35,938 bases of DNA from a virus, in IMG/VR virus record IMGVR_UViG_3300033571_009216, positions 1 through 35,938 of that record; one strand, written 5' to 3'. Within the stretch, counting starts at the first letter, position 1. Every line of letters begins with the position of its first letter. Shown one piece after another: positions 3,929 to 16,904 of the stretch. The notes beneath the pieces are model-generated. The model was not told the DNA's origin. It worked only from the letters and a program-made list of their open reading frames with translations, and made no database searches. The translations under genes and the position numbers were made by a program.

Positions 3929-6289
3929 ATGGCAAAACGAATGACCGAGGACGAGCTGCGGGCGCTCACGGACGCAGAGATGCGCCTGGCGGTCGGCTAT
4001 TGGTCTGGGAAGCTAGCGAACCAGCGCCAAAAGGCGATGAGCTACTACCTCGCCGAGCCGAAGTGGGACTTGGCCCCGCCGGAAGTCGAGGGCCGCTCGT
4101 CGGTGGTCGCGCCCGTCGTTCGCAACACCATCGAGTCGATGCTGCCGCAGTTGATGGTGAAGTTCGCCGGCAGCGACACGGTCGTGGAGTTTGAGCCCAA
4201 CAAGCCGGGCGACGAGGGCAAGGCTGCGACCGCCACGGATTACATCAACTACCTCTACAACGTCCGCAACCACGGCGAGCGGGTGAGCTACGTCTGGATG
4301 AAGGACGCGCTGCTCTCCAAGAACGGCTTCGTCAAGGTTTGGTGGGACACGAGGAACGAGGAGACGCGCGAGGAGTACATCGGCCTGACGGACATTGAGT
4401 TGGCGCAGCTCATGGACGACGAGGAGGTCGAGGTCACCGAGCAAAAGAGTTACCCGGACGAGGAGGACGCTGAAGAGCGCCAGAAGCACCTCGAGCAGCT
4501 CCAGCAGCAACTGGACCGGGCGCTGGACGCCGCGCAGCAAAACCCGCAGGCCGCGCAGGCGGTGCAGCAGCTCCAGCAGCAGATGGCGCAAGTGCAGCAG
4601 ATGCCGCCGAAGCTGCTCTTCGACGTGGTCTGCAAGCGCACCAAGGACGGCGGCCGGATTCGGGTCGAGAACGTCCCGCCGGAAGAAATGCTGGTCTCAC
4701 GCAAGGCCAAGACGCTGGCTGACGCGCAGTTCGTGGGTCACCGCGTCTCGCGCACGGTGAGCGAGTTGAAGAGCATGGGCTACCCGGCCAGCGTGGTGGA
4801 CAACATCACCAGCGACGACCAGGCCGCCGCGCTCAACATGGAGCGCATCGAGCGGCTGTCCTACGACGACGAGCTGGCCTACCTGAACACCGACACCGTC
4901 CAGAGCATGGACGAGTCGCAGCGCATCGTCTGGGTGACCGAGTGCTACCTGCGGGTGGACTACGACGGCGACGGCATTGCCGAGCTCAGAAAGGTCGTGC
5001 GCGCCGGCAATCAGGTGCTCGAGAACGAGATTGTCGACTGCATCCCGTTCGTGGGCATCACCCCGGTGCCGATGCCGCACAAGCTGTTCGGCCTGTCGAT
5101 TGCAGACCTTGCGCTGGAATCCCAGAAGATTGAGACCGCGCTGCTGCGCGGCGTGCTGGACAACACCTACCTCGCCATCAATGGTCGCTATTTCGCGGTC
5201 GACGGGCAGGTGAACCTCGACGACCTGCTGACCTCCCGACCGGGTGGTGTGGTGCGGGTCAAGCAGCCCGGTGCCGTGGGCCGGCTGGATACGGGCTCGG
5301 GCGACGCGCAGCTCGGGCTCGGAATGCTTGAGTACATGAAGGGTTTCAACGAGGACAGCACGGGCTGGACTCGCTACAACCAGGGCTCGGACGGCGACAC
5401 GCTGAACCAGACCGCCACGGGCGTGAATCTGGTGACCAGCCGCGCCGATATGCGCCTTGACCTGATTGCCCGCAACTTCGCCGACGGGTTCCGCGACCTG
5501 TTCCGCTTGATGTTGAAGCTGGTGAGCCAGTACCAGCAGAAAGAGGACGTGGTGAAGCTGCGTGGGCAATGGGTGCCGGTCAATCCGCGCGAATGGCGCA
5601 ATGGGTTCGACTGCGTCATCAACGTCGGTCTGGGCACGGGCAACAAGGACCAGCAGGTCGGCCACCTGATGGCGCTCCTTCAGCAGCAGCAGTTCGGCCT
5701 GCAAGTGGGCACCGCCACGCCGATGAACGTGCTTGAAGCGCAGAAGGAGCTCGCCAAGGCGATGGGCTTCAAGTCCGCCGACAAGTTCTTCCAGGAACCG
5801 CAAGGCCCGCCGCCCAATCCGGCGCAGGCGCAGGCGCAGGCCGAGCAGGCCAAGCTGCAAGCGCAGGCGCAGCTTGAGTCGCAGAAGATGCAGATGCAGC
5901 AGCAGACCGACATCGTGCGTCAGCGTGCCGAGATGGAGCAGCACCAGGCGAAAGTGGCCGCCGAAGCGCAGCTCGCGCAGATGGAAGCGCAACTGAAGGC
6001 GGAACTGGAGCGCGCCAAGCTCGACTCCGAGCGCTGGAAGGCGCAGCTCGAGTCGAACACGCGCATCTACCTCGAGCAGATGAAGCTCGGCCTGGTGGAC
6101 CCGGCCTCGGTGCCGGAGTTGGTCAACCCGGAGACCAAGCCGGTGACCGTCCAGCTTCAGGAGTCGATGGCGCAGACGCAAGCGGCCATTGCCGAGACGC
6201 TGGGCGCGCTGCGTGCTGCGATTGACCACATGAGAGCGCCGCGCCGAATCATCCGCGACGAAAACGGTAAAGCCCAAGGGGTTGTCTGA
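3929..6289 (+). CDS. Portal protein (podovirus type) with long coiled-coil tail
   Basis: A 786-residue protein just after TerL. The N-terminal half carries typical podoviral portal text (NTIESMLPQLMVKFAGSD at about 70-87, and a WMKDALLSKNGFVKVWWD strand region). It has two Gln-rich coiled-coil parts: an insertion at about residues 180-230 and a roughly 110-residue C-terminal segment (about 625-735) rich in Gln, Ala and Glu. The large size resembles P22-like and Bcep22-like portals, where the C-terminal helices form a barrel inside the head. The ATG at 3929 is preferred over an open extension back to 3854 that overlaps TerL. Confidence 0.9.
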   Translation: MAKRMTEDELRALTDAEMRLAVGYWSGKLANQRQKAMSYYLAEPKWDLAPPEVEGRSSVVAPVVRNTIESMLPQLMVKFAGSDTVVEFEPNKPGDEGKAATATDYINYLYNVRNHGERVSYVWMKDALLSKNGFVKVWWDTRNEETREEYIGLTDIELAQLMDDEEVEVTEQKSYPDEEDAEERQKHLEQLQQQLDRALDAAQQNPQAAQAVQQLQQQMAQVQQMPPKLLFDVVCKRTKDGGRIRVENVPPEEMLVSRKAKTLADAQFVGHRVSRTVSELKSMGYPASVVDNITSDDQAAALNMERIERLSYDDELAYLNTDTVQSMDESQRIVWVTECYLRVDYDGDGIAELRKVVRAGNQVLENEIVDCIPFVGITPVPMPHKLFGLSIADLALESQKIETALLRGVLDNTYLAINGRYFAVDGQVNLDDLLTSRPGGVVRVKQPGAVGRLDTGSGDAQLGLGMLEYMKGFNEDSTGWTRYNQGSDGDTLNQTATGVNLVTSRADMRLDLIARNFADGFRDLFRLMLKLVSQYQQKEDVVKLRGQWVPVNPREWRNGFDCVINVGLGTGNKDQQVGHLMALLQQQQFGLQVGTATPMNVLEAQKELAKAMGFKSADKFFQEPQGPPPNPAQAQAQAEQAKLQAQAQLESQKMQMQQQTDIVRQRAEMEQHQAKVAAEAQLAQMEAQLKAELERAKLDSERWKAQLESNTRIYLEQMKLGLVDPASVPELVNPETKPVTVQLQESMAQTQAAIAETLGALRAAIDHMRAPRRIIRDENGKAQGVV

Positions 6290-6660
6290 TGTCTGTGACG
6301 TACACAACGGCGGTCAAAAACGCACGACTGGATGCGGTGGTGACGGCTATCGGTTCGGCGGGCGTGCTGGAGATTGGCACGACCGGCATGAGTTCGGTGC
6401 TGGCGACGATTGCGCTGGGCAACCCGGCCGGGACCACCTCGGGGGGCGTGCTGACCTTCAGCGGATTCCCGCGCAGCGACACCAGCGCCGATGCAACCGG
6501 CACCGCAGCCGCAGCGCGCATTCGCACCGCCAGCGGCGGCACGGACATCATCACCGGGCTCACCGTGGGCACGAGCGGCTCGGACATCAACCTGGACTCG
6601 GTCAGCATCACCACCGGCCAGACGGTCACCATCAATAGCGCGACCATCACGCACGCCTGA
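6289..6660 (+). CDS. Structural protein, 123 aa, Ala/Thr/Gly-rich
   Basis: Starts on the A of the portal stop (TGATG). The 123-residue beta-rich, Ala/Thr/Ser-rich product (VLEIGTTGMSSVLATIALG, then repeated TAAAARIRTASGGTDI and VTINSATITHA) matches a small protein commonly found beside portal or fibre genes in podovirus-like phages. It is probably a minor virion or appendage component, but no fold or partner can be assigned. Strong overlap-type spacing places it in the late operon with the two fibre genes downstream. Confidence 0.7.
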   Translation: MSVTYTTAVKNARLDAVVTAIGSAGVLEIGTTGMSSVLATIALGNPAGTTSGGVLTFSGFPRSDTSADATGTAAAARIRTASGGTDIITGLTVGTSGSDINLDSVSITTGQTVTINSATITHA

Positions 6661-6662
6661 CA

Positions 6663-7619
6663 ATGGCCCATGTTCTAAAGCCTCGCGTCGCTGAGACCAG
6701 TACGACAACAGGCACCGGCGCGTTCACGCTCTCGGGCGCGCTCACCGGCCACCAGCGCTTCTCGGCAGTCTGCGCCACTAGCGACACGACCGAATACGTC
6801 ATCGTCGCCGAGAACGGGACGTGGGAGGAGGGCTTTGGCACCTACTCGTCGGCCAACACGCTCACCCGCACGACCGTCAGCGGCAGCTCCAACGCGGGCG
6901 CTGCGGTGAACTTCGCCGCCGGCAACAAGACCGTGCTGATGACGCCACAAGCGTCTCGAGTGGGCGGCATTCCGCGCTCAAGCGCGCTCATGAAGGGCGA
7001 CGGAGCGGGCGCTCTCTCGGCAGCTTCTGCCGGCACGGACTACCAGGCGGCCATCACCGCCTCTGGCGTACTGAAGGGCGCAGGCAGCGGTTCGGTGAGC
7101 GCTGCTACCGCTGGCACGGATTACCTAGCGCCGCCGTCTGGCACCTCTATCCTTAAAGCCAATAGCGGCGGCGCACTTGCCAACGCAGCCGCCGGGACCG
7201 ACTACGCCAGCCCGTCGCAGACGTTCTATATCGGCACCACGCAGGTCGCAATCAACCGCGCATCGTCAGCGCTGACGCTGGACGGCATCACGCTAACGGA
7301 CCCGGCGATTGTCGGGGCGATTGTCGAGGACGTTTACACCATCTCCGATGGCGCATCTGTTGACATCAACCCAAGCAATGGAAGCATTCAGCTCTGGACG
7401 CTGGGTGCATCGCGCACGCCAACTGCGACCAACTTTGCTGCCGGGGAATCCGTCACGTTGATGATTCTGGACGGCACCGCCTACACGGTGACCTGGACGA
7501 CCATTGGCGTGACTTGGATTGGCGGCACCGCGCCCACGCTGGATACGACCAAGTACACGGTCATTGAGCTTTGGAAGGTCAGCTCGACGGTTTATGGCGC
7601 ATTGGTGGGCTACGCATAA
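6663..7619 (+). CDS. Tail fibre-like protein (cassette A, first gene)
   Basis: 318 residues. The N-terminal half resembles phage fibre attachment modules. The middle has three degenerate repeats of about 25 residues ending AGTDY (about 115-185; for example LKGAGSGSVSAATAGTDYLA), a pattern typical of trimeric tail fibres. The C-terminal module (about 225-318) ends VTWIGGTAPTLDTTKYTVIE and resembles the C-terminus of the protein at 14180-14701. It probably contributes to host recognition. Its stop overlaps the start of the next gene, which is itself a paralogue of the gene at 14701. Confidence 0.75.
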   Translation: MAHVLKPRVAETSTTTGTGAFTLSGALTGHQRFSAVCATSDTTEYVIVAENGTWEEGFGTYSSANTLTRTTVSGSSNAGAAVNFAAGNKTVLMTPQASRVGGIPRSSALMKGDGAGALSAASAGTDYQAAITASGVLKGAGSGSVSAATAGTDYLAPPSGTSILKANSGGALANAAAGTDYASPSQTFYIGTTQVAINRASSALTLDGITLTDPAIVGAIVEDVYTISDGASVDINPSNGSIQLWTLGASRTPTATNFAAGESVTLMILDGTAYTVTWTTIGVTWIGGTAPTLDTTKYTVIELWKVSSTVYGALVGYA

Positions 7620-8260
7620 TGCTCGGTCATGCGCTTCGGGCTGCGGCTAAAACCCCGTCTGTCAGTTACGCAAACAGATACAGCAGCAACACCAACGCCG
7701 CCTCGTTTACGTTCAACACCAGCAGCATTGGAACCGCAGACAACTCGCGTTTGGTGGTAGTGCAAGTTCATGGATTGGCGGCTTCCGGAACAATAACTGT
7801 CGACAGCCTAACTATTGGCGGTACAAGCGCAAATGGTTATGAAAATACAGCGCGGCTTTACCACAATTCCTTGTGGACGCTAGCTGTGGCGGCGGGTACC
7901 ACGGCAAATATTGTGGTCAACTTTAGTGCCACGGCCAACAACTGCCTGATTGGGGTTTACGCACTTTATAATCTAAATTCCACAACGCCGGTAGCCACAA
8001 ACGCCACATTCGCTTCTAGCACCACCATCAGTAACACCATTGACGCTCGGGAAAAAGGCGTTGTGATTGCCGGAATTACTGGGGACGCAGGCTCCACTAC
8101 GACATGGACAGGCGTGACCGAGCGGTATGACCAGCAGGTAGAAACCGATGTGCGTTCCGGCGGGAATGCAACGATTGCAGCTACCAACGCGTCCTATTCG
8201 GTGCAGGCGGTTATTGGTGCCTCGGGCAATATTGTTCTGGCAATCGGGTCGTGGAGATAA
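7619..8260 (+). CDS. Appendage protein, paralogue of 14701-15366 (cassette A, second gene)
   Basis: 213 residues, almost entirely beta-predicted and rich in Ser/Thr/Asn/Ala. It aligns along most of its length with the protein at 14701-15366: shared landmarks are TIGG-SA-GYEN--RL-H-SLW, NFS----NC-IGV-ALY, TWTG-TE--D-QV---RSG and a final WR. Third codon positions look noticeably A+T-richer than in neighbouring genes, suggesting a later arrival or different selection. It is probably a receptor-binding or decoration component, and the function is inferred from context only. ATG at 7619 overlaps the upstream stop. Confidence 0.7.
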   Translation: MLGHALRAAAKTPSVSYANRYSSNTNAASFTFNTSSIGTADNSRLVVVQVHGLAASGTITVDSLTIGGTSANGYENTARLYHNSLWTLAVAAGTTANIVVNFSATANNCLIGVYALYNLNSTTPVATNATFASSTTISNTIDAREKGVVIAGITGDAGSTTTWTGVTERYDQQVETDVRSGGNATIAATNASYSVQAVIGASGNIVLAIGSWR

Positions 8261-8262
8261 GC

Positions 8263-8799
8263 GTGTACATCAAGCCGCCTAGCACCTACCCGTACACCTT
8301 GGGGCAACTCTACGCCGACAACCCCAACACATCCTTCCCGGCAACGATGCCTGATGAGCGGCTAGCTGATTGGGGCATTTATCCGGTCACCGCCGCAACG
8401 CCCCCTGCATACGACATCCCGACTCAAAAGCTGGTCGAGGAAACTCCCGTTAACGTGGGCGGCATCTGGACGCAGGTCTGGGTGGTTGCGCCGATGAGCG
8501 CGGACGAGCTGGAAGCCAAGCGGCAGCAAATCAAGGCGGAAATCACCGACGCCGTGCAAGCGCGGCTGGACGCCTTCGCGCAGACGCGCGGCTACGACAA
8601 CATCGTGAGCGCCTGCTCGTATGCGACCAGTCAGCACAGCAAGTACGGCCCAGAGGGGCGGTATTGCGTGGCTGCTCGAGAGCAGACCTGGGATGCGCTT
8701 TTTGCAATTGAGTCGGACGTTATTGCAGGAAATCGGCCCATGCCTGCGAGCTACGAGGACATCAAAGCCGAGCTGCCGGCGCTTGTCTGGCCGGTGTAA
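8263..8799 (+). CDS. Fibre-associated protein / possible fibre assembly chaperone
   Basis: GTG start at 8263 preceded by ggaga, so the product begins MYIKPPSTYPYTLGQLYADN, a start widely seen in fibre-linked phage proteins. An in-frame GTG at 8251 is also possible but lies inside the previous gene. The 178-residue protein has an N-terminal domain containing WGIYPVTAATPP and a WTQVWVVAPMS strand, then a helical half (ELEAKRQQIKAEITDAVQAR) with conserved Tyr/Trp. The layout resembles DUF4376 and tail-fibre-assembly-like proteins. It may help fold the fibre or be a minor fibre part. Confidence 0.6.
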   Translation: MYIKPPSTYPYTLGQLYADNPNTSFPATMPDERLADWGIYPVTAATPPAYDIPTQKLVEETPVNVGGIWTQVWVVAPMSADELEAKRQQIKAEITDAVQARLDAFAQTRGYDNIVSACSYATSQHSKYGPEGRYCVAAREQTWDALFAIESDVIAGNRPMPASYEDIKAELPALVWPV

Positions 8800-8802
8800 C
8801 TC

Positions 8803-9642
8803 ATGGCGGCGCTAAACGGCTCGGGGGCCATTGGCTCGCTGCCGATTGGCTCGGCGGCCATTGGCAGCGGTGTTGACGCACCGATTACCGGCGACCTGGC
8901 CGGCGTTGAAAGCGGCTTCGATTCCGCATCGTTTGCCGGCAAGGTTCTGGTCAGCGGCGCGTTGGCCGTCACCGAGACCGGGCAGGACACGTTCTCGGGA
9001 AGCGGCGTCAATCAGATTGCCGGCGTCATGGCCGCGACCGAGACCGGCGCGGACACGTTTGCGGGCAGCGGCGCAGTCACCGTTGCCGGAGCGCTGGCGG
9101 CAACCGAGGCCGGCGCGGATACGGCAGCGTTCTCGGGGCAAGTGGTCGTTGCCGGGTCGCTGGCCGGCACCGAGTCGGGCGCGGATGTCTTTGCTGCCAC
9201 GGGAACCACCGCCGACCAAGGTTCGCTCAACGCAACCGAGACTGGAGAAGATGTCTTCTCTGCCGAGTCGGGCAGGAAGGCCGGCGGCTACGACTACAAG
9301 AGTCGCAAGCGCTACTACGTTCGGGTGGGCGACCGGATTCTCGGGTTTGCCACCGCGCAAGAGGCGACTTCAGCGCTGGCGCGAGACAAGCCTGCCGCAG
9401 CAAAAGACCCGGAGCAGATGCCGCCGCCGGTTGAAGAGGTGGTCGAGGTCGAGCAGGAGCCGGCGGAGCCGCAGCCGGTGGAGGTGCTACCGCTTGCGGA
9501 GCTGCTCGCGTATGCCGATGTGCTGGCCGAGCGCGAGAAAGTTCGCGCGATGCTCCGGCGCAATGAGTACGAGGCGCTCGCGCGGGTCTACGAGACATGG
9601 CGCGATGAGGAAGACGTTGAACTTCTGCTGGTGTCCCTATGA
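8803..9642 (+). CDS. 22-residue tandem-repeat virion-type protein
   Basis: 279 residues in three parts. Residues 1-29 are a Gly/Ala/Ile-rich start with GS-IGS repeats. Residues 30 to about 156 are a regular array with an exact 22-residue period, starting at 30, 52, 74, 96, 118 and 140. Its consensus is roughly G-L-A-T-E-G-A-D-F-G, with hydrophobic positions alternating as in a beta-solenoid. The rest has a basic patch (YKSRKRYYVRVGDR), a Pro/Glu-rich linker (PPPVEEVVEVEQEPAEPQPV) and a helical acidic C-terminus. No named family is recognised. The genome position suggests a head or tail appendage component. Confidence 0.7.
   Translation: MAALNGSGAIGSLPIGSAAIGSGVDAPITGDLAGVESGFDSASFAGKVLVSGALAVTETGQDTFSGSGVNQIAGVMAATETGADTFAGSGAVTVAGALAATEAGADTAAFSGQVVVAGSLAGTESGADVFAATGTTADQGSLNATETGEDVFSAESGRKAGGYDYKSRKRYYVRVGDRILGFATAQEATSALARDKPAAAKDPEQMPPPVEEVVEVEQEPAEPQPVEVLPLAELLAYADVLAEREKVRAMLRRNEYEALARVYETWRDEEDVELLLVSL
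8890..9270 (+). repeat. 66-bp coding tandem repeat (22 codons), about six units
   Basis: Protein-level tandem repeat inside 8803-9642, with units starting at about 8890, 8956, 9022, 9088, 9154 and 9220. The best conserved core is G-LA-TE-G-D-F. The units are diverged at DNA level, so the array is old or selected for variety rather than freshly amplified. Confidence 0.8.
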
Positions 9643-9992
9643 TTGAACAATTCGTGGCGCTGCTGTTTCTGGCGCGAGACATGGCGCACCGGGCGCACCT
9701 CACCACCGACTCCTATGCCAAGCACATGGCGCTCGGGGAGTTCTACGAAGCGCTGCCGGAGCTGGCCGACAGCCTGGCCGAAACGTGGCAGGGGCTGAAC
9801 GAGCGACTGGGCGAAATCCCCCTGCTTGAGAACAAAGCCGGCACCGACATCGTGAAGGCGCTCCAGGCCCAGCGGGCGTGGATTGAGCGCAACCGCCGGG
9901 AGCTTGGCAACAGCACGACCATTCAGAACATCGTGGACGAGATTGTCCAACGGTACGGGCAAACCCTCTACAAACTGCGTTTTCTGGGATAA
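9639..9992 (+). CDS. Conserved helical phage protein (DUF5856 / ferritin-like look), 117 aa
   Basis: The ATG overlaps the upstream stop. The 117-residue all-helical protein begins MIEQFVALLFLARDMAHRAH and has H-x2-H and E/D residues spaced along helices (HMALGEFYEALPELADSLAE). This is the look of small phage proteins compared with Dps/ferritin folds (DUF5856, recalled from memory). Metal binding is not certain. It usually travels with structural genes, and its role in the virion or in assembly is unknown. Confidence 0.65.
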   Translation: MIEQFVALLFLARDMAHRAHLTTDSYAKHMALGEFYEALPELADSLAETWQGLNERLGEIPLLENKAGTDIVKALQAQRAWIERNRRELGNSTTIQNIVDEIVQRYGQTLYKLRFLG

Positions 9993-9995
9993 GAC

Positions 9996-10283
9996 ATGGC
10001 GCAATCCACCATCCTCTCGGCCGCCAAGACTGCGGCCACCTCTTCCGATGTGACCGTCACCGCCGGCACCCCGGTGACCATTGGCGTGTTCTCGGCGACC
10101 TACGGGCGCGTGCCGCATGACGCGCTCTTCACCGTCTACGCCGACACGCCGGGTGCGGACAACGTCTGGGCGGTGCTCACCGATGAGAAGCGCGCGGTGA
10201 CCATTGATGCGCCGGGCACTTACCGGGTCAAGCGCACCGTCTACAGCACGGGCGAGTCGTTCGGCGTGTATCTGGAGACCTGA
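9996..10283 (+). CDS. Small beta-rich structural protein, 95 aa
   Basis: Three bases after the previous stop. The 95-residue product begins MAQSTILSAAKTAATSSDVT and ends in beta strands (APGTYRVKRTVYSTGESFGV). Similar short proteins are common in podovirus-like structural modules, where they are candidates for head fibres or decoration. No motif gives a function. The stop overlaps the next ATG. Confidence 0.65.
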   Translation: MAQSTILSAAKTAATSSDVTVTAGTPVTIGVFSATYGRVPHDALFTVYADTPGADNVWAVLTDEKRAVTIDAPGTYRVKRTVYSTGESFGVYLET

Positions 10284-10576
10284 TGAGTCCAGAGGAGCGC
10301 ATCTACAACGGCAACCGCGCCCGCGAAGTGCTGGAGAACGAAGCCTTCCAGGCTGCCTTTGAAGCTATCGAACAGGACATCACCGACCAATGGAAGAACA
10401 GCCCCGCCCGCGCCGAGGCCGACCGCGAAAAATTGTGGACGTACCTGCAACTGTTAACCAAGTTGAAGGGCAACCTGCAATCGACGATGGAGACCGGCAA
10501 GCTGGCGCAGCTCGAGATGGCGCACAAGAGCGGCTGGCTCCAGCGGATGACTGGGGTGTTTTCGCAAGCCGAGTGA
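10283..10576 (+). CDS. Helical structural-module protein, 97 aa
   Basis: The ATG overlaps the upstream stop (TGATG). The 97-residue protein is helical, charged and free of cysteines, with a coiled-coil-like middle (EQDITDQWKNSPARAEADRE) and a conserved end (GWLQRMTGVFSQ). Proteins of this kind regularly precede scaffold and capsid genes in related phages. The function is unknown; it may be an assembly factor. The stop is shared with a GTG start of the next small gene. Confidence 0.6.
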   Translation: MSPEERIYNGNRAREVLENEAFQAAFEAIEQDITDQWKNSPARAEADREKLWTYLQLLTKLKGNLQSTMETGKLAQLEMAHKSGWLQRMTGVFSQAE

Positions 10577-10725
10577 TTGCCCGGCAGATGCGCGCGGGTG
10601 ACGTTCGCACCGTGTGGCACCCCAGCCCCGATTGCGAGCTGCTGGTGACCGACAACGGCAACGTGCGCGTGGTGGTCGGTGAGCAGCGCGCCCAGGTCTC
10701 TGACGCCTCATTCGTAGAACTCTGA
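10573..10725 (+). CDS. Small hypothetical protein, 50 aa
   Basis: GTG start at 10573 overlaps the previous stop (GTGA); an internal ATG at 10588 is the alternative. The 50-residue beta-rich product (CELLVTDNGNVRVVVGEQ) looks like a small SH3-like strand protein. It is the last gene before two tandem terminators. It is likely real because of the coupling and because it fills the space up to the terminators exactly. Confidence 0.5.
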   Translation: MIARQMRAGDVRTVWHPSPDCELLVTDNGNVRVVVGEQRAQVSDASFVEL

Positions 10726-10747
10726 CGGTCGCGTAACCCGTCACAGC

Positions 10748-10772
10748 AAGCCCGCCTAGTGCGGGCTTTTTT
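10748..10772 (+). terminator. Intrinsic terminator (first of a tandem pair)
   Basis: Perfect 8-bp stem AAGCCCGC/GCGGGCTT with loop ctagt, running into six T residues. It lies 22 bases after the stop of the 50-residue gene. Confidence 0.85.
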
Positions 10773-10784
10773 GTTGCGCGCAAG

Positions 10785-10806
10785 AACCCGCTTCGGCGGG
10801 TTTTTT
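10785..10806 (+). terminator. Intrinsic terminator (second of a tandem pair)
   Basis: Stem AACCCGC/GCGGGTT with a TTCG tetraloop and six T residues, twelve bases after the first terminator and only 15 bases before the scaffold start codon at 10822. Two terminators inside one apparent late operon imply antitermination, internal promoters or use as RNA-stabilising hairpins. Confidence 0.85.
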
Positions 10807-10821
10807 CATTTGGGAATCCAG

Positions 10822-11742
10822 ATGGACAATCCGGCAACGGAATCCAAAGAGCTCAACACCGACACCGCCGCCGAAGCGTTCGCGGAACTCATCGAGCAGG
10901 AAGAGCAGGGCGAACAGCCCGCAGCGGAAGACACTCCCGCCGAGGCGCCCGCTGAAGAGCCTGCCGAGCAAGAGCAGCAAACCGAAGAAGACCCGCTCGT
11001 CACCATCAAGGTCGATGGCAAGGACGTGCAGGTTCCTCTGAGCGAGCTGAAGAACGGCTACCAGCGTCAAGCGGACTACACCCGCAAGACGATGCAGGTG
11101 GCCGAAGAGCGCAAGGCAGCGGAGGCAGAGCGTCAGCAGGCGCTTGCCGAGCGGCAACAGTACGCGGGCAATCTGCAAAAGCTGCAAGCGCAGATTGAAG
11201 GCGCACTAGCCCAACAACAGAACATCGACTGGCAGCAACTGCTGGAGAACGACCCTCAGGCTTACCTGAAAGAGCGGCACCTCTGGGAACAGAGACAAGC
11301 CGCCCTACAGCAAAACCTGACGGCGCAACAGCACATCGCTGCACAGATGCAGGCCGAGCAGGCTCGCGCGTTCCAAGGCCACCTTCAGGCGCAGCAGGAG
11401 CAACTCCTTGCCAAGCTGCCGGAGTGGAAGGACGCGGAGAAGGCAAAGGCCGAAAAGACCGCCCTCCGGGAATACCTCAAGACCCAAGGGTACGACGAGC
11501 AATCGGTGAACAGCGTGGCAGACGCACGCGCGGTGCTGATGGCCCGTAAAGCAATGATGTACGACCAGATGATGAGCAAGGCGCAGGCCGCTCAGAAGAA
11601 GGTCAGCACGTTGCCGACGCGGGTTCAGCAACCGGGCAATGGCGCCAACCCCGGCCTCGACCGGCGCGCCAGCGCGTACCAGCGACTGACCAAGAGTGGT
11701 CGGGTCGAGGACGCTGCTGCGGTGTTCGCATCCCTTCTTTAG
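10822..11742 (+). CDS. Capsid scaffolding protein
   Basis: A 306-residue acidic, Gln/Glu/Ala-rich protein directly before the major capsid gene. Residues 1-55 are very acidic and disordered. A short beta segment follows (VTIKVDGKDVQVPLSELKNG, about 60-79), then a long coiled coil (about 80-240). The C-terminus is basic (GANPGLDRRASAYQRLTKSG), as expected for the capsid-binding end of a scaffold. The ATG at 10822 is chosen over an open extension back to 10759 that would run through the second terminator. Confidence 0.85.
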   Translation: MDNPATESKELNTDTAAEAFAELIEQEEQGEQPAAEDTPAEAPAEEPAEQEQQTEEDPLVTIKVDGKDVQVPLSELKNGYQRQADYTRKTMQVAEERKAAEAERQQALAERQQYAGNLQKLQAQIEGALAQQQNIDWQQLLENDPQAYLKERHLWEQRQAALQQNLTAQQHIAAQMQAEQARAFQGHLQAQQEQLLAKLPEWKDAEKAKAEKTALREYLKTQGYDEQSVNSVADARAVLMARKAMMYDQMMSKAQAAQKKVSTLPTRVQQPGNGANPGLDRRASAYQRLTKSGRVEDAAAVFASLL

Positions 11743-11754
11743 TAGGAACAAAAA

Positions 11755-12678
11755 ATGGCAGCTCCTAGCGGAACTTTCCTGACGACTGCGGCGATTGGCA
11801 ACCGTGAAGACCTCACCGATGTCATCTACCGCATCAGCCCCACCCAGACCCCGGTTCTGAACCTCGCCTCCAAGGCCAAAGCGACCAACACCCTGCACGA
11901 GTGGCAGGTGCAGGAACTCGCCTCGGCAGCGGACAACGCGCAGGCCGAAGGCGACGACGCCAGCAACAAGACGGTCACCCCGACCGTGCGTCTGAACAAC
12001 CGGACGCAAATCTCCACCAAGACCGTCCAGGTCTCGGGTTCGCAGCAGAACATGAACCCGGCCGGCCGCAAGGACGAGCTGGCGTATCAGATGTCGCTGG
12101 CCTCGGCCGAACTGAAGCGCGACATGGAAAAGGGTCTCACGCAGAACGACGTGCTCGCCACGTCTCCGCGCAAGTCCCGTGGCCTGCGTGGTTGGGTGGT
12201 CGACAACTTCAGCAAGGCGGCTGACGCGACTCTGGCGAGCTACACGAACAACACCGGCTACACCGCCGGCACCACTCGTGCGTTCACCGAGACGCTGATG
12301 AAGTCGGTTCTCCAGCAGTGCTACACCAACGGTGGTGAGCCCGACGTCATCATGATGCCGCCGGCCATCAAGCAGGTCTTCTCGACCTTCTCCGGTAACT
12401 CGACCCGGTTTGACAAGTCCGAGGACGCGAAGCTGTACGCGGCCATCGACTTCTACTACGGGGACTTCGGGACGCTGGAGGCGGTGCCGAATCGCTTCAT
12501 GGCGAGCTCGGACGTGTACCTGCTCCAGACCGACAAGCTCGCCATCGCCTACCTGCGTCCGTTCCAGACCACGGAACTGGCGAAGACGGGTGACTCCGAG
12601 CGCCGGATGATTGTGGTCGAGTACGCGATGGAGTGCCGTGCGCCCAAGGCTCACGGCGCCGTCTACGACCTGGCCTGA
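11755..12678 (+). CDS. Major capsid protein (SU10-like / DUF5309 family)
   Basis: 307 residues following the scaffold, with ribosome site aggaac. The N-terminal text (NREDLTDVIYRISPTQTPVL, then EWQVQELASA) and the C-terminal text (VYLLQTDKLAIAYLRPFQTT) match the SU10 major head protein family (Pfam SU10_MCP, formerly DUF5309), recalled from the family pattern rather than searched. It would form the icosahedral shell with the HK97 fold. Codon choice is strongly G+C-biased and regular, consistent with high expression. A hairpin terminator follows immediately. Confidence 0.9.
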   Translation: MAAPSGTFLTTAAIGNREDLTDVIYRISPTQTPVLNLASKAKATNTLHEWQVQELASAADNAQAEGDDASNKTVTPTVRLNNRTQISTKTVQVSGSQQNMNPAGRKDELAYQMSLASAELKRDMEKGLTQNDVLATSPRKSRGLRGWVVDNFSKAADATLASYTNNTGYTAGTTRAFTETLMKSVLQQCYTNGGEPDVIMMPPAIKQVFSTFSGNSTRFDKSEDAKLYAAIDFYYGDFGTLEAVPNRFMASSDVYLLQTDKLAIAYLRPFQTTELAKTGDSERRMIVVEYAMECRAPKAHGAVYDLA

Positions 12679-12687
12679 GTGTAACCA

Positions 12688-12713
12688 GGGGGGCTTCGGC
12701 CCCCCGCTTTGTT
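12688..12713 (+). terminator. Hairpin/terminator after the capsid gene
   Basis: Perfect 7-bp stem GGGGGGC/GCCCCCC with TTCG tetraloop at 12688-12705, followed by a weak T tract (gctttgttt). It may be a partial terminator or a 3'-end stabiliser for the abundant capsid mRNA. Confidence 0.7.
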
Positions 12714-12723
12714 TGGAGTAAGC

Positions 12724-13188
12724 ATGGGCACTCAAATCAGGCAACGCGCTGATGGTGGCGTGGAATTTGTCGAGGACAGCACCTCGTCGGTTCCGCTCGC
12801 CATTGGTGGCGGCTACAAGGGCGTGAAGGTCGCCAAGGTTGCGCTCGCGGGCGTGGCTGCGACGACCGGCGGCGCTCTGTTCTCGTGGGCGAACCCCGAG
12901 GGCCAGAGCATCATCGTCACCCGGTTGCAGATTGACATTACTACCAAATCCACCGGCGCGGCCAACGTGTCGTTCGGGGTTGCGGCCAACGGCACCACGT
13001 CGTCTGCCAACCTCGTCGACACCTATGCGGCAGGCGGCACGGAAAAGGTCGTGGACAACCTGGCCGATGCCGGCACCAACGGCAAGGTTGTGCAGAAGAT
13101 GACCTCCAGCCAGTTCATCACCGGCACCGGGTCGGCAACGACCGCAGGACTGGTGGGTAGCGTCTACATCCACTACGTCATCGCCTAA
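12724..13188 (+). CDS. Putative head decoration / minor structural protein, 154 aa
   Basis: ATG at 12724 after ribosome site ggagtaagc. The 154-residue product is beta-rich and Thr/Ala/Gly-rich: VKVAKVALAGVAATTGGALFSW, then IIVTRLQIDITTKSTGAANV, and a C-terminal GLVGSVYIHYVIA strand. This and its position right after the capsid gene suggest a decoration or capsid-stabilising protein. It is flanked on both sides by nearly identical GGGGGGC-TTCG-GCCCCCC hairpins, so it forms its own transcriptional segment. The exact role is inferred from position. Confidence 0.6.
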   Translation: MGTQIRQRADGGVEFVEDSTSSVPLAIGGGYKGVKVAKVALAGVAATTGGALFSWANPEGQSIIVTRLQIDITTKSTGAANVSFGVAANGTTSSANLVDTYAAGGTEKVVDNLADAGTNGKVVQKMTSSQFITGTGSATTAGLVGSVYIHYVIA

Positions 13189-13210
13189 ACGCAGCATCTA
13201 GGCAATCCCA

Positions 13211-13234
13211 AGGGGGGCTTCGGCCCCCCTTTTT
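13211..13234 (+). terminator. Intrinsic terminator after the decoration-type gene
   Basis: Stem AGGGGGGC/GCCCCCCT with TTCG loop and a run of five T residues. The core is identical to the hairpin at 12688. The next gene starts 15 bases later, so read-through or antitermination must feed the downstream tail genes. Confidence 0.85.
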
Positions 13235-13248
13235 CATTTCTGGCGCGC

Positions 13249-13572
13249 ATGAGACAAGTCATCCAAAACCCGGACGGCACGCAGACCGTCGTCGCACTCG
13301 AGGACGGCGCGCTTGTGACCGGCACGGTGCAAGACGCCACGCCGATTGCCGACATGACCAAGCGCCTGGCGAACGAGGGCATTCACGGCTCCAAAGAGAT
13401 GCGCCACGCCGCGTCCATTCCGTTCGTCTTTATTGAGCAGTACTGCAACGAGCGCGGCATCAGCTTTGCCGAGTTCTCGGCCAGCCAAGAGCACAAGCAA
13501 GCGCTCATCAATGACCCGGCGCTGGCGGCGTTTCGGGTCTGGAAGCCGAGCGTGGTGGGGGGTCTGCGGTGA
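13249..13572 (+). CDS. Conserved structural-module protein, 107 aa
   Basis: ATG at 13249 just after a terminator; no strong ribosome site is visible. The 107-residue product starts with a beta region (VIQNPDGTQTVVALEDGALV) and ends helical (FVFIEQYCNERGISFAEFSA, NDPALAAFRVW). Similar proteins lie between capsid and adaptor genes in podovirus-like phages. The role is unknown; it could act in head completion. Its stop overlaps the GTG of the adaptor gene. Confidence 0.65.
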   Translation: MRQVIQNPDGTQTVVALEDGALVTGTVQDATPIADMTKRLANEGIHGSKEMRHAASIPFVFIEQYCNERGISFAEFSASQEHKQALINDPALAAFRVWKPSVVGGLR

Positions 13573-14180
13573 GCCTTTCAAACTACAGCGACCTGCAATC
13601 CTCGGTTGCGTCGTGGCTGCACCGCTCGGACCTGACGAGCGTCATCCCGGACCTCGTGACGCTGGCCGAAGCGCGGATTGCGCGCGACCTGCGCCTGTCC
13701 AACCAGCTCGCCACGGCCACGCTCACCTGCGTCTCGGGCACCAACACGGTGGCGGTACCGACCGGGTTTCTGGAGTTTGAGAACCTGACGCTCAACACCG
13801 ACCCGACGCGCGCGCTGGCGTTCGTGCCCTACGAGTACTTGGGCACCAAGTACGACGAGGGCTACCTCGGCATTCCGGTGCATTACACGATCGCCGGGAC
13901 AAACGTGGTGCTTGGGCCCACGCCCGATGCCGCGTACACCATCACCGCGTCCTACTACAAGCGCATCGACCCGCTTGCTTCGGTGAGCACCAACTGGCTG
14001 CTGACCAACCACCCCGGCGTTTACCTGTTCGGCACCTTGGCCGAGGCGGCACCGTTCATGCAAAACGACGAGCGCACCGGGCTCTGGGAGTCCAAATACG
14101 CGCAGGAAGTGGCACGCCTGCAAGACGCTGACCAGCGGGCGCAATACAGCGGCTCCGCGTTGCGAGTGAAGGCACTCTGA
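13569..14180 (+). CDS. Head-tail adaptor (SU10 adaptor-like)
   Basis: A 203-residue protein with GTG start. The N-terminal helices carry SDLTSVIPDLVTLAEARIAR and DLRLSNQ, followed by a beta domain (TLTCVSGTNTVAVPTGFLEF) and a helical C-terminus (APFMQNDERTGLWESKYAQE). This is the pattern of phage adaptor proteins that dock under the portal (SU10_adaptor, T7 gp11-like). It fits the SU10-type capsid protein in the same module. It would link the portal to the tail nozzle. Confidence 0.8.
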   Translation: MSLSNYSDLQSSVASWLHRSDLTSVIPDLVTLAEARIARDLRLSNQLATATLTCVSGTNTVAVPTGFLEFENLTLNTDPTRALAFVPYEYLGTKYDEGYLGIPVHYTIAGTNVVLGPTPDAAYTITASYYKRIDPLASVSTNWLLTNHPGVYLFGTLAEAAPFMQNDERTGLWESKYAQEVARLQDADQRAQYSGSALRVKAL

Positions 14181-14701
14181 TGGGACTGGAAACTGGCACT
14201 TACATCTCGGACCTGAATGCGTCCAACCCGGCCTCGAGTGACCCCAAGTCGCAAGGCGACGACCACCTAAGGCTCATCAAGTCCACCGTCAAGGCGACGT
14301 TTCCGAATGTCAGCGGCGCGGTGACGCCGACGCACACCGAGCTGAACTACGTTGACGGCGTGACCTCGGCCATTCAGACGCAGCTTGATGCGCGGGCCAA
14401 GATTGCCGGGACCATCACGGCGATGGCCGCGCTGGATGTGGACTGCTCGGCCGGCACCTACTTCACCAAAACCATTGCCGGGAACTCCACGTTCACGTTC
14501 AGCAATGCACCTTCGGGCGCGTATGGGTTCGTGCTGGAACTCACGCACACCTCGGGCACGGTGACCTGGCCGGCTGCGGTGAAATGGCCCAACGACACGG
14601 CACCGAGCCTGACGACGGGCAAGACGCACGTCTTTGTCTTCATCACCGACGACGCCGGCACGCGCTGGCGGGGTGCGGCGAACGTGAATTACACCAACTA
14701 A
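14180..14701 (+). CDS. Tail fibre-like protein (cassette B, first gene)
   Basis: A 173-residue protein with a classical podoviral fibre start (GTYISDLNASNPASSDPKSQ, then HLRLIKSTVKATFPNVSGAV and HTELNYVDGVTSAIQTQL). The C-terminal module (about 90-173) has TVTWPAAVKWPNDTAPSLTT and ends GAANVNYTN. The same module type ends the fibre-like protein at 6663-7619. As there, the stop overlaps the ATG of a gene for a beta-rich paralogue. It is probably a short fibre or an adaptor for an appendage. Confidence 0.8.
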   Translation: MGLETGTYISDLNASNPASSDPKSQGDDHLRLIKSTVKATFPNVSGAVTPTHTELNYVDGVTSAIQTQLDARAKIAGTITAMAALDVDCSAGTYFTKTIAGNSTFTFSNAPSGAYGFVLELTHTSGTVTWPAAVKWPNDTAPSLTTGKTHVFVFITDDAGTRWRGAANVNYTN

Positions 14702-15366
14702 TGGACCCGCTTGTCATTCAGATTCTGGCGGGTTCGGCGGGTAGCGCCGCTTTGCTGCCGGATGCGTCGGTGACCTATGCGGCGCAGACCTCGTCCACCA
14801 CCGCCGGCAGCTCGTTCTCCTTTAGCAGCGTGGCGTTCTCTTCCACCGCATCGGACCGGCTGATTGTGGTTTCGGTGGGCGCAACCGCCGCAAATCAGCG
14901 GACCGTCAGCAGAGTGACCATTGGTGGCGTGTCGGCAACTGGATACGAGAACGCCAACCGCCTGCGGCACGGGTCATTGTGGGTTGCGGCAGTACCGAGC
15001 GGCACCACCGGCACGGTGGATGTGAACTTCTCGGGCAGCGTGGACAACTGCCACATCGGCGTCTGGGCGTTGTACGGAATTTCGTCCGCCGTCCCGAGAG
15101 AGTCGAACCAAGTCTCCGGCTCGTACACCAACAATTCTTCCACGCTGAATACGGCCAAGGGCGGGGTATCCATCGCAGCGGCGGTATCGGCGGGCGCGGT
15201 CACCATCACCTGGACCGGGCTGACGGAGAACTTCGATTTGCAGGTGTCCTCGGAGATGCGTAGCGGCGCGTCTCTTGTGGAGACCGTGTCGGATGCTGCC
15301 AAGGCGGTGAGCTGGACGCAGTCCAGTTCCACCAACACCACCGTGACGTTGGCGACCTGGAGATAG
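14701..15366 (+). CDS. Appendage protein, paralogue of 7619-8260 (cassette B, second gene)
   Basis: 221 residues, Ser/Thr/Ala-rich and beta-predicted. From about residue 75 to the end it aligns with the protein at 7619-8260 (shared VTIGG-SATGYENANRLRH, then NC-IGVWALYG, ITWTGLTE and a final TWR). Unlike that copy, the codons here show the G+C-rich third positions of the rest of the genome. ATG at 14701 overlaps the upstream stop; open frame further upstream belongs to the overlap. A role in host binding is inferred from the fibre context. Confidence 0.75.
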   Translation: MDPLVIQILAGSAGSAALLPDASVTYAAQTSSTTAGSSFSFSSVAFSSTASDRLIVVSVGATAANQRTVSRVTIGGVSATGYENANRLRHGSLWVAAVPSGTTGTVDVNFSGSVDNCHIGVWALYGISSAVPRESNQVSGSYTNNSSTLNTAKGGVSIAAAVSAGAVTITWTGLTENFDLQVSSEMRSGASLVETVSDAAKAVSWTQSSSTNTTVTLATWR

Positions 15367-15368
15367 CG

Positions 15369-16904
15369 ATGCCGATTGTCACCATCAAGAACGTCGGCGG
15401 GGTTGGCTACATTGCAGACCAACCGCCGCATGAGCTGGACCCGGCGGCGTGGTCGAACATCCAGAACATTCGGTTCCTTGAGGGCGCTGCATGGCGGGCG
15501 CTGGGCGATACGCAGGTGTTCACCACACCCTCGGTGACCCCGTATTACATCGCCTCGTACAACACCAGCCTGTCGCGGTTCATCGTTCACGCCGGCAACA
15601 CCGCCGTCTATGTGGACGATGGGTCCACGCGCACCGACATCACCGGCACCGCGCCTACCGGCACGGAAGCCAACCGCTGGACCGGCGGCACGCTGAACGG
15701 CGTGCTGGTGATGAACAACGGGGTGGACGTGCCGACCTATTGGGGTGGCGATGTAGCGACCAACCTTGCCAGCCTCACCGGGTGGAATGCCAACTGGCGG
15801 GCCGCTTCGCTGCGTCCGTTCAAAAACTATCTGGTGGCGCTGGATGTGACCAAGTCGGGCGCGCGCTACCCGCACATGGTCAAGTGGTCGCACACGGCGG
15901 ACCCCGGAACGATTCCGTCGAGCTGGGATGAGACCGACCCGGCCGTGGATGCCGGCGAGGTGGACCTGGCCGAGACCTCGGACTTTGTGATTGATTGCCT
16001 GCCGCTGGGTGGCACCAACATCATCTACAAAGAACATTCGATGTACGCAATGACGTACATCGGCGGGCAGTTCATCTGGCAATTCCAGCGCCTGCCCGGC
16101 AGCTACGGGGCGCTCGCTCCGGGGTGCGTGGTGGATACGCCGGTCGGGCACGTTGTGTTGACGCCGGGCGATGTGGTGCTGCACAAGGGCGGCGCGCCGG
16201 AATCCATCATCAGCGGCCGGCTCAAGCGCTGGCTGTTTGCCACCATCAATCCGAGCTACTACACCCGGTCGTTTCTGACGGTGAACCCGACCAAGAACGA
16301 GGTCTGGGTGTGCTTCCCGGCGGACAACAGCACCACCTGCACGAAGGCTGCGGTGTGGAACTGGCGCGAGGACATCTGGTCTACCAGAGACCTGCAAAGC
16401 GTCACCTACGGAGCGGTCGCACAAGCGGCGACCACCTCGGGCGATGCGTGGTCATCCGATTCGGACTCTTGGGCAAGCGATGCAAGCGCGTGGGGCACCA
16501 CGGCGCTGCAACCCTCGGAGAAACAGCTCTTTCTCTGCACCGCCGCGCCGAAGATTCTCACGGCTGACACGGCGACCACCTTCGCCGGCACATCGTTCAC
16601 CGCCACGCTCGAGCGCACCGGACTGGCGTTCGGGGACGCCAGCGTGGTGAAGACGGTGCGCTCCATCTACCCGCGCGTGGAAGGCGTGAGCGGTCAGACG
16701 CTCTATGTGCAGGTAGGTGCGGCGATGGACGTAGAGGCGGGCTATACCTGGTCGGCAGCGGTGCCCTACACGATTGGCACCAGCTACAAGGCGGACACGT
16801 TTGCATCTGGCAGGTTCATTGCGGTGCGCTTTTACAGCACGGCCGATGCGAGCTGGAAGGTTCGCAGCTACGACGTTGATTTCGTGACGCAAGGGAAATA
16901 CTGA
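15369..16904 (+). CDS. Large tail protein, candidate tail nozzle / stabilisation protein
   Basis: 511 residues, two bases after the previous stop. The N-terminus (GYIADQPPHELDPAAWSNIQ, then NIRFLEGAAWRALG) is typical of the large podoviral tail protein that caps the adaptor ring. The body consists of repeated WD-like beta blades (MVKWSHTADPG, VWNWREDIWSTR), consistent with a propeller-type fold as in P22 gp10 or nozzle-type proteins. It probably forms the distal tail tube and retains DNA. The assignment is from overall pattern and position between adaptor and ejection proteins. Confidence 0.7.
   Translation: MPIVTIKNVGGVGYIADQPPHELDPAAWSNIQNIRFLEGAAWRALGDTQVFTTPSVTPYYIASYNTSLSRFIVHAGNTAVYVDDGSTRTDITGTAPTGTEANRWTGGTLNGVLVMNNGVDVPTYWGGDVATNLASLTGWNANWRAASLRPFKNYLVALDVTKSGARYPHMVKWSHTADPGTIPSSWDETDPAVDAGEVDLAETSDFVIDCLPLGGTNIIYKEHSMYAMTYIGGQFIWQFQRLPGSYGALAPGCVVDTPVGHVVLTPGDVVLHKGGAPESIISGRLKRWLFATINPSYYTRSFLTVNPTKNEVWVCFPADNSTTCTKAAVWNWREDIWSTRDLQSVTYGAVAQAATTSGDAWSSDSDSWASDASAWGTTALQPSEKQLFLCTAAPKILTADTATTFAGTSFTATLERTGLAFGDASVVKTVRSIYPRVEGVSGQTLYVQVGAAMDVEAGYTWSAAVPYTIGTSYKADTFASGRFIAVRFYSTADASWKVRSYDVDFVTQGKY

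Follow-up and report, generated by a model that had tools for sequence, protein, structure and literature searches.

Separate tip adhesins are well characterised in T-even phages. In T2, S16, and PP01, the fibre gene for gp37 is followed by a separate gene for the adhesin gp38, whose N-terminus decides which fibre it fits. T2 gp37 is incompatible with PP01 gp38 until the N-terminus of gp38 is exchanged (PMC12892980). In gp38, attachment is mediated by a bundle of helices that contains three tryptophans (PMC6851490). A further arrangement is found in the Alteromonas phages V22 and A5 and in cyanophage Pam3, where distant phages share fibre modules together with the downstream gene (PMC10579305, PMC9608196), which encodes a chaperone (with DUF4376 in V22/A5). 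Furthermore, near-identical phages have been described that differ in a putative receptor-binding gene directly behind the fibre gene (PMC7468147), whereby the accessible part of that source describes one head type and neither a leader nor a socket.

Here, we analyzed a window of 35,938 nucleotides, i.e., the whole stretch of DNA from record IMGVR_UViG_3300033571_009216, a small virus of bacteria in which two different tail or surface fibres bear probable cell-binding heads of one kind. An earlier note on this sequence had described a two-gene fibre cassette that is present twice. All four open reading frames were recovered, and both pairs share the gene order and a TAATG junction, in which stop and start codon have one base in common. 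The best reading, drawn by analogy, is that the pairs would work like gp37–gp38 of T2/S16, with a shaft and a separate docked tip adhesin. As in those phages, a fibre gene precedes a separate adhesin gene, and the N-terminus of the adhesin is proposed to decide the fitting fibre. However, the connector would be much shorter: the putative docking part comprises 10–15 residues at the N-terminus of each second gene product, MLGHALRAAAKTP and MDPLVIQILAGSAGS contain no tryptophan, and there is no helical attachment domain. Glycine-rich motifs or a polyglycine sandwich are missing in both second gene products, the model of one of them is all-beta, and the heads described below span many folds. A sequence relation between T-even gp37–gp38 and these pairs was not found.

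Two Fibre Loci in the Window

All features given here are located on the plus strand. The first pair lies in an insertion slot between the portal and scaffold genes (slot A), which opens with a gene for a small virion protein (6289–6660; phrog_3758 virion structural protein, E = 2e-15). The fibre shaft gene F1a (6663–7619) has a variable middle part and a conserved C-terminal part of ∼103 aa (7308–7616), termed socket A. It overlaps by 1 nt with G2a (7619–8260), which encodes a predicted fibre-tip head of a beta-sandwich family and starts with leader A (MLGHALRAAAKTP, 7619–7657), a putative docking peptide. The third gene of the cassette, C3a (8251–8799), is chaperone-like (phrog_4998, E = 3.2e-12) and has no counterpart in the second pair. 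It is followed by a slot A partner gene (8803–9642), whose product ends in a conserved acidic C-terminus (DEEDVELLL), a motif shared with slot A genes of other relatives.

The second pair (slot B) is situated between the genes for the tail adaptor (13569–14180; Pfam SU10_adaptor, E = 8e-38) and the tail nozzle (15369–16904; PDB 8zkk, E = 3e-53; SU10 chain 7z47_G, E = 3e-31). It consists of the short tail fibre gene F1b (14180–14701), ending in socket B (C-terminal 98 aa, 14405–14698; phrog_9017 tail fiber, E = 5e-15), and G2b (14701–15366), which again overlaps by 1 nt. G2b encodes a predicted fibre-tip head of the same family as G2a and begins with leader B (MDPLVIQILAGSAGS, 14701–14745), a leader type that is common to socket B partners. 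Capsid, adaptor, and nozzle are of the SU10 type in conserved order (PF17236, E = 3.5e-96; PF24175, E = 8e-38; nozzle matches as above), and belong to the same families as in SU10/LUZ24-like podovirus tails. The N-terminus of F1b matches a solved podovirus tail fibre (residues 1–66; PDB 9nxk, E = 5.7e-16) and more weakly SU10 chain 7z47_I of 267 aa (residues 2–48; E = 0.014), and F1b carries an N-terminal anchor homologous to that of solved podovirus tail fibres, of the type that docks on adaptor and nozzle. The fibre gene is placed relative to the nozzle gene as gp16 is to gp17 in SU10, where, however, the short fibre gene abuts the nozzle gene, whereas here the head gene intervenes. Most likely, F1b and G2b would form a tail fibre at the adaptor–nozzle region, while F1a and G2a together with C3a would provide a second fibre.

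It is possible, albeit doubtful, that the slot A fibre instead decorates the capsid or portal vertex and binds particles or surfaces, so that the slot B fibre alone would serve as infection receptor. The position of slot A between portal and scaffold genes, an indel hotspot (18/62 loci >1.5 kb), would fit such a role. The AlphaFold model of socket A is beta-rich (pLDDT 82.7) and its best fold match is the capsid spike of Pseudomonas phage Pa223 (prob 0.99, E = 8.8e-3); however, this match is weak (rmsd 11.4, TM 0.52). Furthermore, a socket A fibre is located between the adaptor and nozzle genes in L003, another phage of lower GC content, and, in the T4-like cyanophage S-CREM2, close to baseplate genes, which argues against a decoration. 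A sequence search of socket A against the PDB yielded a single thioredoxin match, which was judged chance-like. The decoration reading is compatible with an exchange of heads, and its likelihood is not exclusive of the composite fibre proposed below.

Nature of the Second Gene Products

The G2b AlphaFold model is a beta-sandwich of modest confidence (pTM 0.70, pLDDT 65), whereby residues 1–20, the leader region, are of low confidence and unstructured. Fold matches in BFVD were found among minor tail proteins and stand-alone proteins of phages (best E = 2e-9); a comparison of the head structure with the PDB gave no convincing match. G2a showed partial, weak profile matches to the minor tail protein domains phrog_2106 (E = 4.9e-6) and phrog_553 (E = 1.4e-4), neither of which was obtained for G2b. 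Tentaclins (PMC10743442), which consist of a C-type lectin plus Ig domains, were rejected as head identity due to their different topology. A receptor-binding role, as suggested in the earlier note, is rated probable for the second genes.

It is improbable that gene 2 encodes a fibre-specific assembly chaperone, which caps the tip during folding like T4 gp38, Mu Tfa, or V22 gp27, rather than an adhesin. Gene 2 does directly adjoin the fibre gene and is of similar size, and V22 gp27 and Pam3 gp25 are chaperones encoded downstream of fibres (PMC7289586, PMC9608196). However, gene 2 sequences split into no fewer than 22 families, among them propeller-like and lectin-like folds, a variation unlike that of chaperones for one conserved socket, and the head fold resembles minor tail proteins. 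Moreover, cassette A has a chaperone-like gene of its own: a C3a homologue comes after the head in 51 of the 56 evaluable socket A cassettes, and the homologue in MW202701 is annotated as tail assembly chaperone. In contrast to V22/A5 and Pam3, a variable head stands directly behind the fibre and the chaperone-like gene comes third. The Pfam search of gene 2 yielded no chaperone match; DUF4376 was found in none of G2a, G2b, and C3a, so that a DUF4376-type chaperone identity is not supported for either gene.

Leaders Follow the Socket in a Survey of Viral Contigs

As single-sequence queries, G2a and G2b retrieved no more than a single viral contig and a single cultured phage, and an alignment query of G2a, G2b, and the L003 homologue retrieved nothing beyond these. 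The sockets were the productive queries, with 353 relatives of socket A (mean column identity 64% over 45 sequences) and 238 of socket B in viral contigs. The layout is common to the named phage genomes S-CREM2, CRP-1, MW202701, and MW202710. Among these, the pair corresponds to gp42/gp41 in Roseobacter phage CRP-1 and to gp115/gp116 in Synechococcus phage S-CREM2, both of which are cultured. A search of SU10-like relatives for single ORFs that combine a fibre with a head homologue found none. The gene after socket A overlaps by 1 nt in 43 of 83 and by 4 nt in 25 of 83 cases. At present, genes behind the sockets are mostly annotated as “hypothetical protein.”

The gene after a socket usually bears the leader typical for that socket, namely MLxHxLRAA for socket A and MDPxxIxxLAGA for socket B. 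The 116 deduplicated pairs, which stem from similarity searches of public contigs and lack phylogenetic independence, fell into 22 head families, five of which were seen on both sockets. In these five families the leader tracks the socket, with p = 5e-5 as the lowest value attainable with 20,000 permutations, whereas six head segments gave p = 0.09–0.85. Between head families within socket A, leader and socket similarity were correlated (rho 0.23, p = 5e-4; head controls 0.04–0.11). Within socket B this correlation was absent (rho 0.02), perhaps because one head family dominates the sample. Leader classification at a zero threshold reached 77.5%, and the A subtype MLARKALAG was by raw score nearer to leader B than to other A leaders; nonetheless, all B leaders scored below all A leaders.

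The leader could in principle be a by-product of translation-coupling or recombination-hotspot DNA at the gene junction instead of a docking peptide, which we consider quite improbable. The leader does sit exactly at the overlapping junctions, breakpoints fall inside it, and homing-type endonuclease genes occur at the fibre/head junction in four loci. However, the leader persists where an HNH-like or GIY-YIG-like gene intervenes between leader and fibre gene, and amino acids are kept in the leader A core while synonymous codons are saturated (leucine in six codons, arginine in six; pN 0.18 versus pS 0.92, whereby pN is biased low because the genes were picked by motif). This suggests that the leader A core is constrained as a protein.

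Origin of the Two Heads

G2a and G2b are paralogous along their length, as claimed before (∼40–41% identity and 59% positives over 215 aa, E = 7e-41; local alignment score 396 versus a mean of 57 and a maximum of 112 for shuffles, z = 36). The similar end module suggested for the first genes holds for the C-terminal ∼96 aa (31% identity, E = 3e-5; local alignment score 88, shuffle maximum 67, z = 8.4), whereas the N-termini differ, so that F1a and F1b share weakly related C-terminal modules without full-length paralogy. The third positions of G2a are A+T-richer, as had been noted, and its GC3 is the lowest among 32 genes measured (median 0.764).

The earlier note had left the choice between duplication and capture of a related cassette; the capture of a related module stood, the duplication of the two-gene cassette did not. 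A recent in-genome duplication of the complete cassette with subsequent divergence is very improbable despite the shared order and overlap, the paralogous second genes, and the weakly similar first-gene modules, because no DNA-level similarity was found between G2a and G2b and G2a has a closer relative elsewhere (67% identity to L003:7134–7775 versus only 41% to G2b), and since fibre N-termini and leaders differ, L005 and L004 have another head family in slot B, and GC3 is 0.556 for G2a versus 0.797 for G2b. The fold was largely found to be widespread in single copies, an outcome named beforehand as speaking against the earlier reading: it is present in many phage tail proteins, and heads of the G2a/G2b family occur downstream of fibres in unrelated phages.

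L005 and L004 are near relatives, with major capsid proteins 97–100% identical and F1b 94/92% identical. In slot B, DNA similarity to both ends at 14717, inside the leader and six codons into G2b, and restarts at 15368. In slot A, a block of 96.7% identity to L005 extends up to 7206, covering the N-terminal 181 codons of F1a, beyond which the sequence is replaced; L005 encodes a beta-propeller head where G2a stands, followed once more by C3a. Relatives show that heads are exchanged as units between fibre types, with each fibre retaining its own matching leader, and that the G2a and G2b heads have origins independent of each other. The unit that moved is the head domain alone, with second-gene leaders that differ and each match their own fibre.

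A Proposed Composite Fibre With Exchangeable Heads

We consider it likely that each pair encodes one composite fibre with a leader-docked tip adhesin, and that the G2a/G2b head family was independently acquired on both sockets of this phage. Gene 1 would provide a shaft ending in a socket, and gene 2 a separate tip adhesin composed of the leader and an exchangeable head. The leader would dock on the C-terminal socket of the preceding fibre, and the head would contact the host surface. The TAATG overlap would couple translation of both genes, and recombination would swap the head but preserve the socket–leader match. The same head family would have reached both sockets through independent acquisitions, and therefore one phage would carry two related but diverged tip adhesins. 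The earlier note had proposed two alternative receptor-binding or decoration proteins; both may rather be present on the same virion. Sequence comparison is the basis for the modular swaps, the leader–socket association, the independent head origins, and the anchor homology of F1b, and we infer physical docking, tip location, and receptor binding.

On balance, we lean towards a plug-and-socket system of general occurrence among environmental phages, both short-tailed and contractile-tailed, in which a leader of ∼10 residues is the interchangeable connector between dozens of unrelated receptor-binding folds and a few conserved sockets, and in which heads change socket via leader replacement. 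This would be the T-even logic with far shorter connectors of two types, and with more than 20 head families spread over hundreds of environmental contigs. It turns into a testable question whether a 10-residue peptide determines the fit of head and fibre. If the leader is a docking element, it would serve as a marker for receptor-binding proteins in unannotated phage genomes, namely the gene behind the socket, and would offer a way to study changes in phage host recognition through single-gene exchange. Head swapping would let the virus alter its adhesion target while the fibres need not be rebuilt.

Two Fibre Pairs With Paralogous Second Genes

The virus record comprises 35,938 bases and was searched as a separate assembly. 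It encodes terminase, portal, nozzle, DNA ejection proteins, endolysin and integrase, as well as a major capsid protein (PF17236, E = 3.5e-96) and an adaptor (PF24175, E = 8e-38), both of SU10 type. The phage is probably a temperate podovirus, kin to the SU10/LUZ24 tail type; MAGs with capsid relatives are those of Betaproteobacteria, Devosia and other Hyphomicrobiales.

An earlier note had described a two-gene fibre cassette that is present twice, as F1a (6663–7619) with G2a (7619–8260) and as F1b (14180–14701) with G2b (14701–15366). All four open reading frames and a TAATG junction at each pair were found as described. The second genes are indeed paralogous (40% identity over 215 aa, E = 7e-41; z = 36 against shuffles), and their contrast in third-position composition is real, with a GC3 of 0.556 in G2a, the lowest among 32 genes, versus 0.797 in G2b. 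The similar end module proposed for the first genes holds for the last ~96 residues (31%, E = 3e-5, z = 8.4 against shuffles), whereas the rest does not align. Duplication of the cassette was rejected, since G2a and G2b have no DNA similarity, G2a is closer to its nearest known relative in another phage (L003, 54% GC; 67% identity) than to G2b (41%), and the N-termini of F1a and F1b are unrelated. In F1b, residues 1–66 align with the N-terminal part of a podovirus tail fibre of known structure (9nxk, E = 5.7e-16); no PDB match was found for F1a. The observation is confirmed and its interpretation supported in part.

Location and Possible Attachment of the Two Pairs

The pair F1b and G2b lies between the adaptor gene and the nozzle gene (15369–16904), whose product matches PDB 8zkk and 7z47_G. 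Because of this position and the anchor of F1b, the pair most likely forms a tail fibre. F1a and G2a lie in an insertion hotspot between portal and scaffold (slot A, 6289–10725). This interval exceeds 1.5 kb in 18 of 62 related genomes, where the extra genes are variable and structural-looking, and measures ~0.5–1.1 kb in the remainder. The modelled C-terminal module of F1a (socket A; pLDDT 82.7) has its best match in the capsid spike of Pseudomonas phage Pa223 (prob 0.99, E = 8.8e-3, rmsd 11.4), a predicted likeness that may be taken as a lead to F1a attachment and no more.

Slot A also encodes a protein (8803–9642) with variable N-terminal repeats and a conserved acidic C-terminus, RDEEDVELLL, which ends otherwise unrelated slot A proteins in ~10 relatives as well (L026, L030, L032, L037, L058, L076 and others) and is possibly an anchoring tail. 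A small gene within the structural operon (9639–9992) matches phrog_858 (E = 4e-25), annotated as starvation-inducible transcriptional regulator.

Natural Head Exchange in Close Relatives

Two viral contigs carry nearly the same capsid gene as the window (L005, 100%; L004, 97%) and similar F1b genes (94 and 92%, respectively), and in both the gene after F1b differs. DNA similarity ends at 14717, six codons inside G2b, and resumes at 15368, the final base ahead of the nozzle gene, whereby only the first G2b residues, MDPLVIxxLA, are retained. In slot A of L005, the first 181 codons of F1a are 96.7% identical to the window and the socket is related (80%), while a beta-propeller-like protein replaces G2a and is followed by the chaperone-like gene C3a (8251–8799 in the window). 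L003 harbors two complete socket-A cassettes in tandem (6148–11474), whose heads are a G2a-type sandwich in one and a propeller in the other; a chaperone-like gene comes after the head in both. Two tip heads are therefore not unique to the window.

Leaders Are Associated With Sockets

The C-terminal modules of F1a and F1b (socket B) were used as queries against IMG/VR, which yielded 353 and 238 matching stretches, respectively; 79 loci were retained for each. The gene after socket A overlaps the fibre gene by 1 nt in 43 of 83 cases and by 4 nt in 25 of 83. Its first residues are variants of M(L/R)xHxLRAA or, for one subset, MLARKALAG; the gene after socket B opens with variants of MDPNVIKLAMGAAGAGG. 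Behind these 10–15-residue leaders stand unrelated heads, with the folds of families outside the window named by eye: beta-sandwiches, YPWS-repeat propellers, RCC1-like propellers, glycine-rich heads, lectin-like heads (the YVEDVFSTYLYTG family and LLLHGDGTNG proteins) and others.

After exclusion of near-duplicates and non-heads, 116 pairs fell into 22 head families. Five occur on both sockets, including the window's own (four members on socket A; one, G2b, on socket B). In these five, leaders resemble same-socket leaders of other head families (within-family permutation, p = 5e-5, the lowest value that 20,000 permutations allow), and six 14-residue head segments gave no socket association in the same test (p 0.09–0.85). 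Between head families, leader similarity rises with socket similarity for socket A (rho 0.23, p = 5e-4) and is uncorrelated with it for socket B (rho 0.02). The leader-A core is kept as protein with saturated synonymous change; these genes were selected by motif, and this choice explains part of the low pN but not the synonymous saturation.

Named phages provide further examples. Synechococcus phage S-CREM2 has socket A in gp115, leader MLQSQGLRAGSGG with an unrelated head in gp116, and a C3-like gp117; Roseobacter phage CRP-1 has gp42/gp41; Limnohabitans phage DC31 combines socket B, leader MDSISQKMLMGAAGAS and a propeller-like head; Microcystis phage Mae-JY30 carries a distant G2a-type head downstream of an unrelated fibre. 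Several phages (L184, L186–L193, L203, L205 and others) have two socket-B fibre genes separated by ~4 kb. An RCC1-like propeller head comes after one of them; after the other, the place of the head is taken by a conserved protein of 140 aa (MSVITELLFNAGTGGLFGLFGS) that is perhaps a holin.

In four loci, a putative endonuclease gene, by eye HNH-like in three or else GIY-YIG-like, lies exactly between socket-A fibre gene and head gene (L137:5334–5963, L148:716–1345, L160:5333–5962 and L168 after 2571). The head directly after it still has a leader (MLNKKALSA, MLSKKALSA, MLAKKSLGA). Placed where heads are exchanged, such homing endonucleases might be what drives the swaps.

Head Fold and Relation to gp37/gp38

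The G2b model is a beta-sandwich (mean pLDDT 65, pTM 0.70) with low confidence in residues 1–20, the leader. Its BFVD matches (best E = 2e-9) are stand-alone 200–260 aa proteins of uncultured phages and mycobacteriophage minor tail proteins; no convincing PDB entry was found for the fold. Of the evaluable cassettes, 51 of 56 with socket A and 16 of 50 with socket B have a C3-like gene after the head; in MW202701 and MW202710, this gene carries the annotation tail assembly chaperone. Therefore, the likely chaperone of cassette A is encoded apart from the second gene.

From modularity, position and fold we infer that the leader would dock the head on its fibre and that the head would bind the receptor. 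Among systems studied by experiment, the pair gp37/gp38 of T2-type phages comes closest; there, the N-terminus of the separate adhesin sets which fibre accepts gp38 (PMC12892980; S16 structure, PMC6851490). Unlike gp38, the second genes of the window encode neither a tryptophan-bearing helical attachment domain nor a polyglycine sandwich. In our reading, their proteins would work like T2-type gp38 but stand outside that family.
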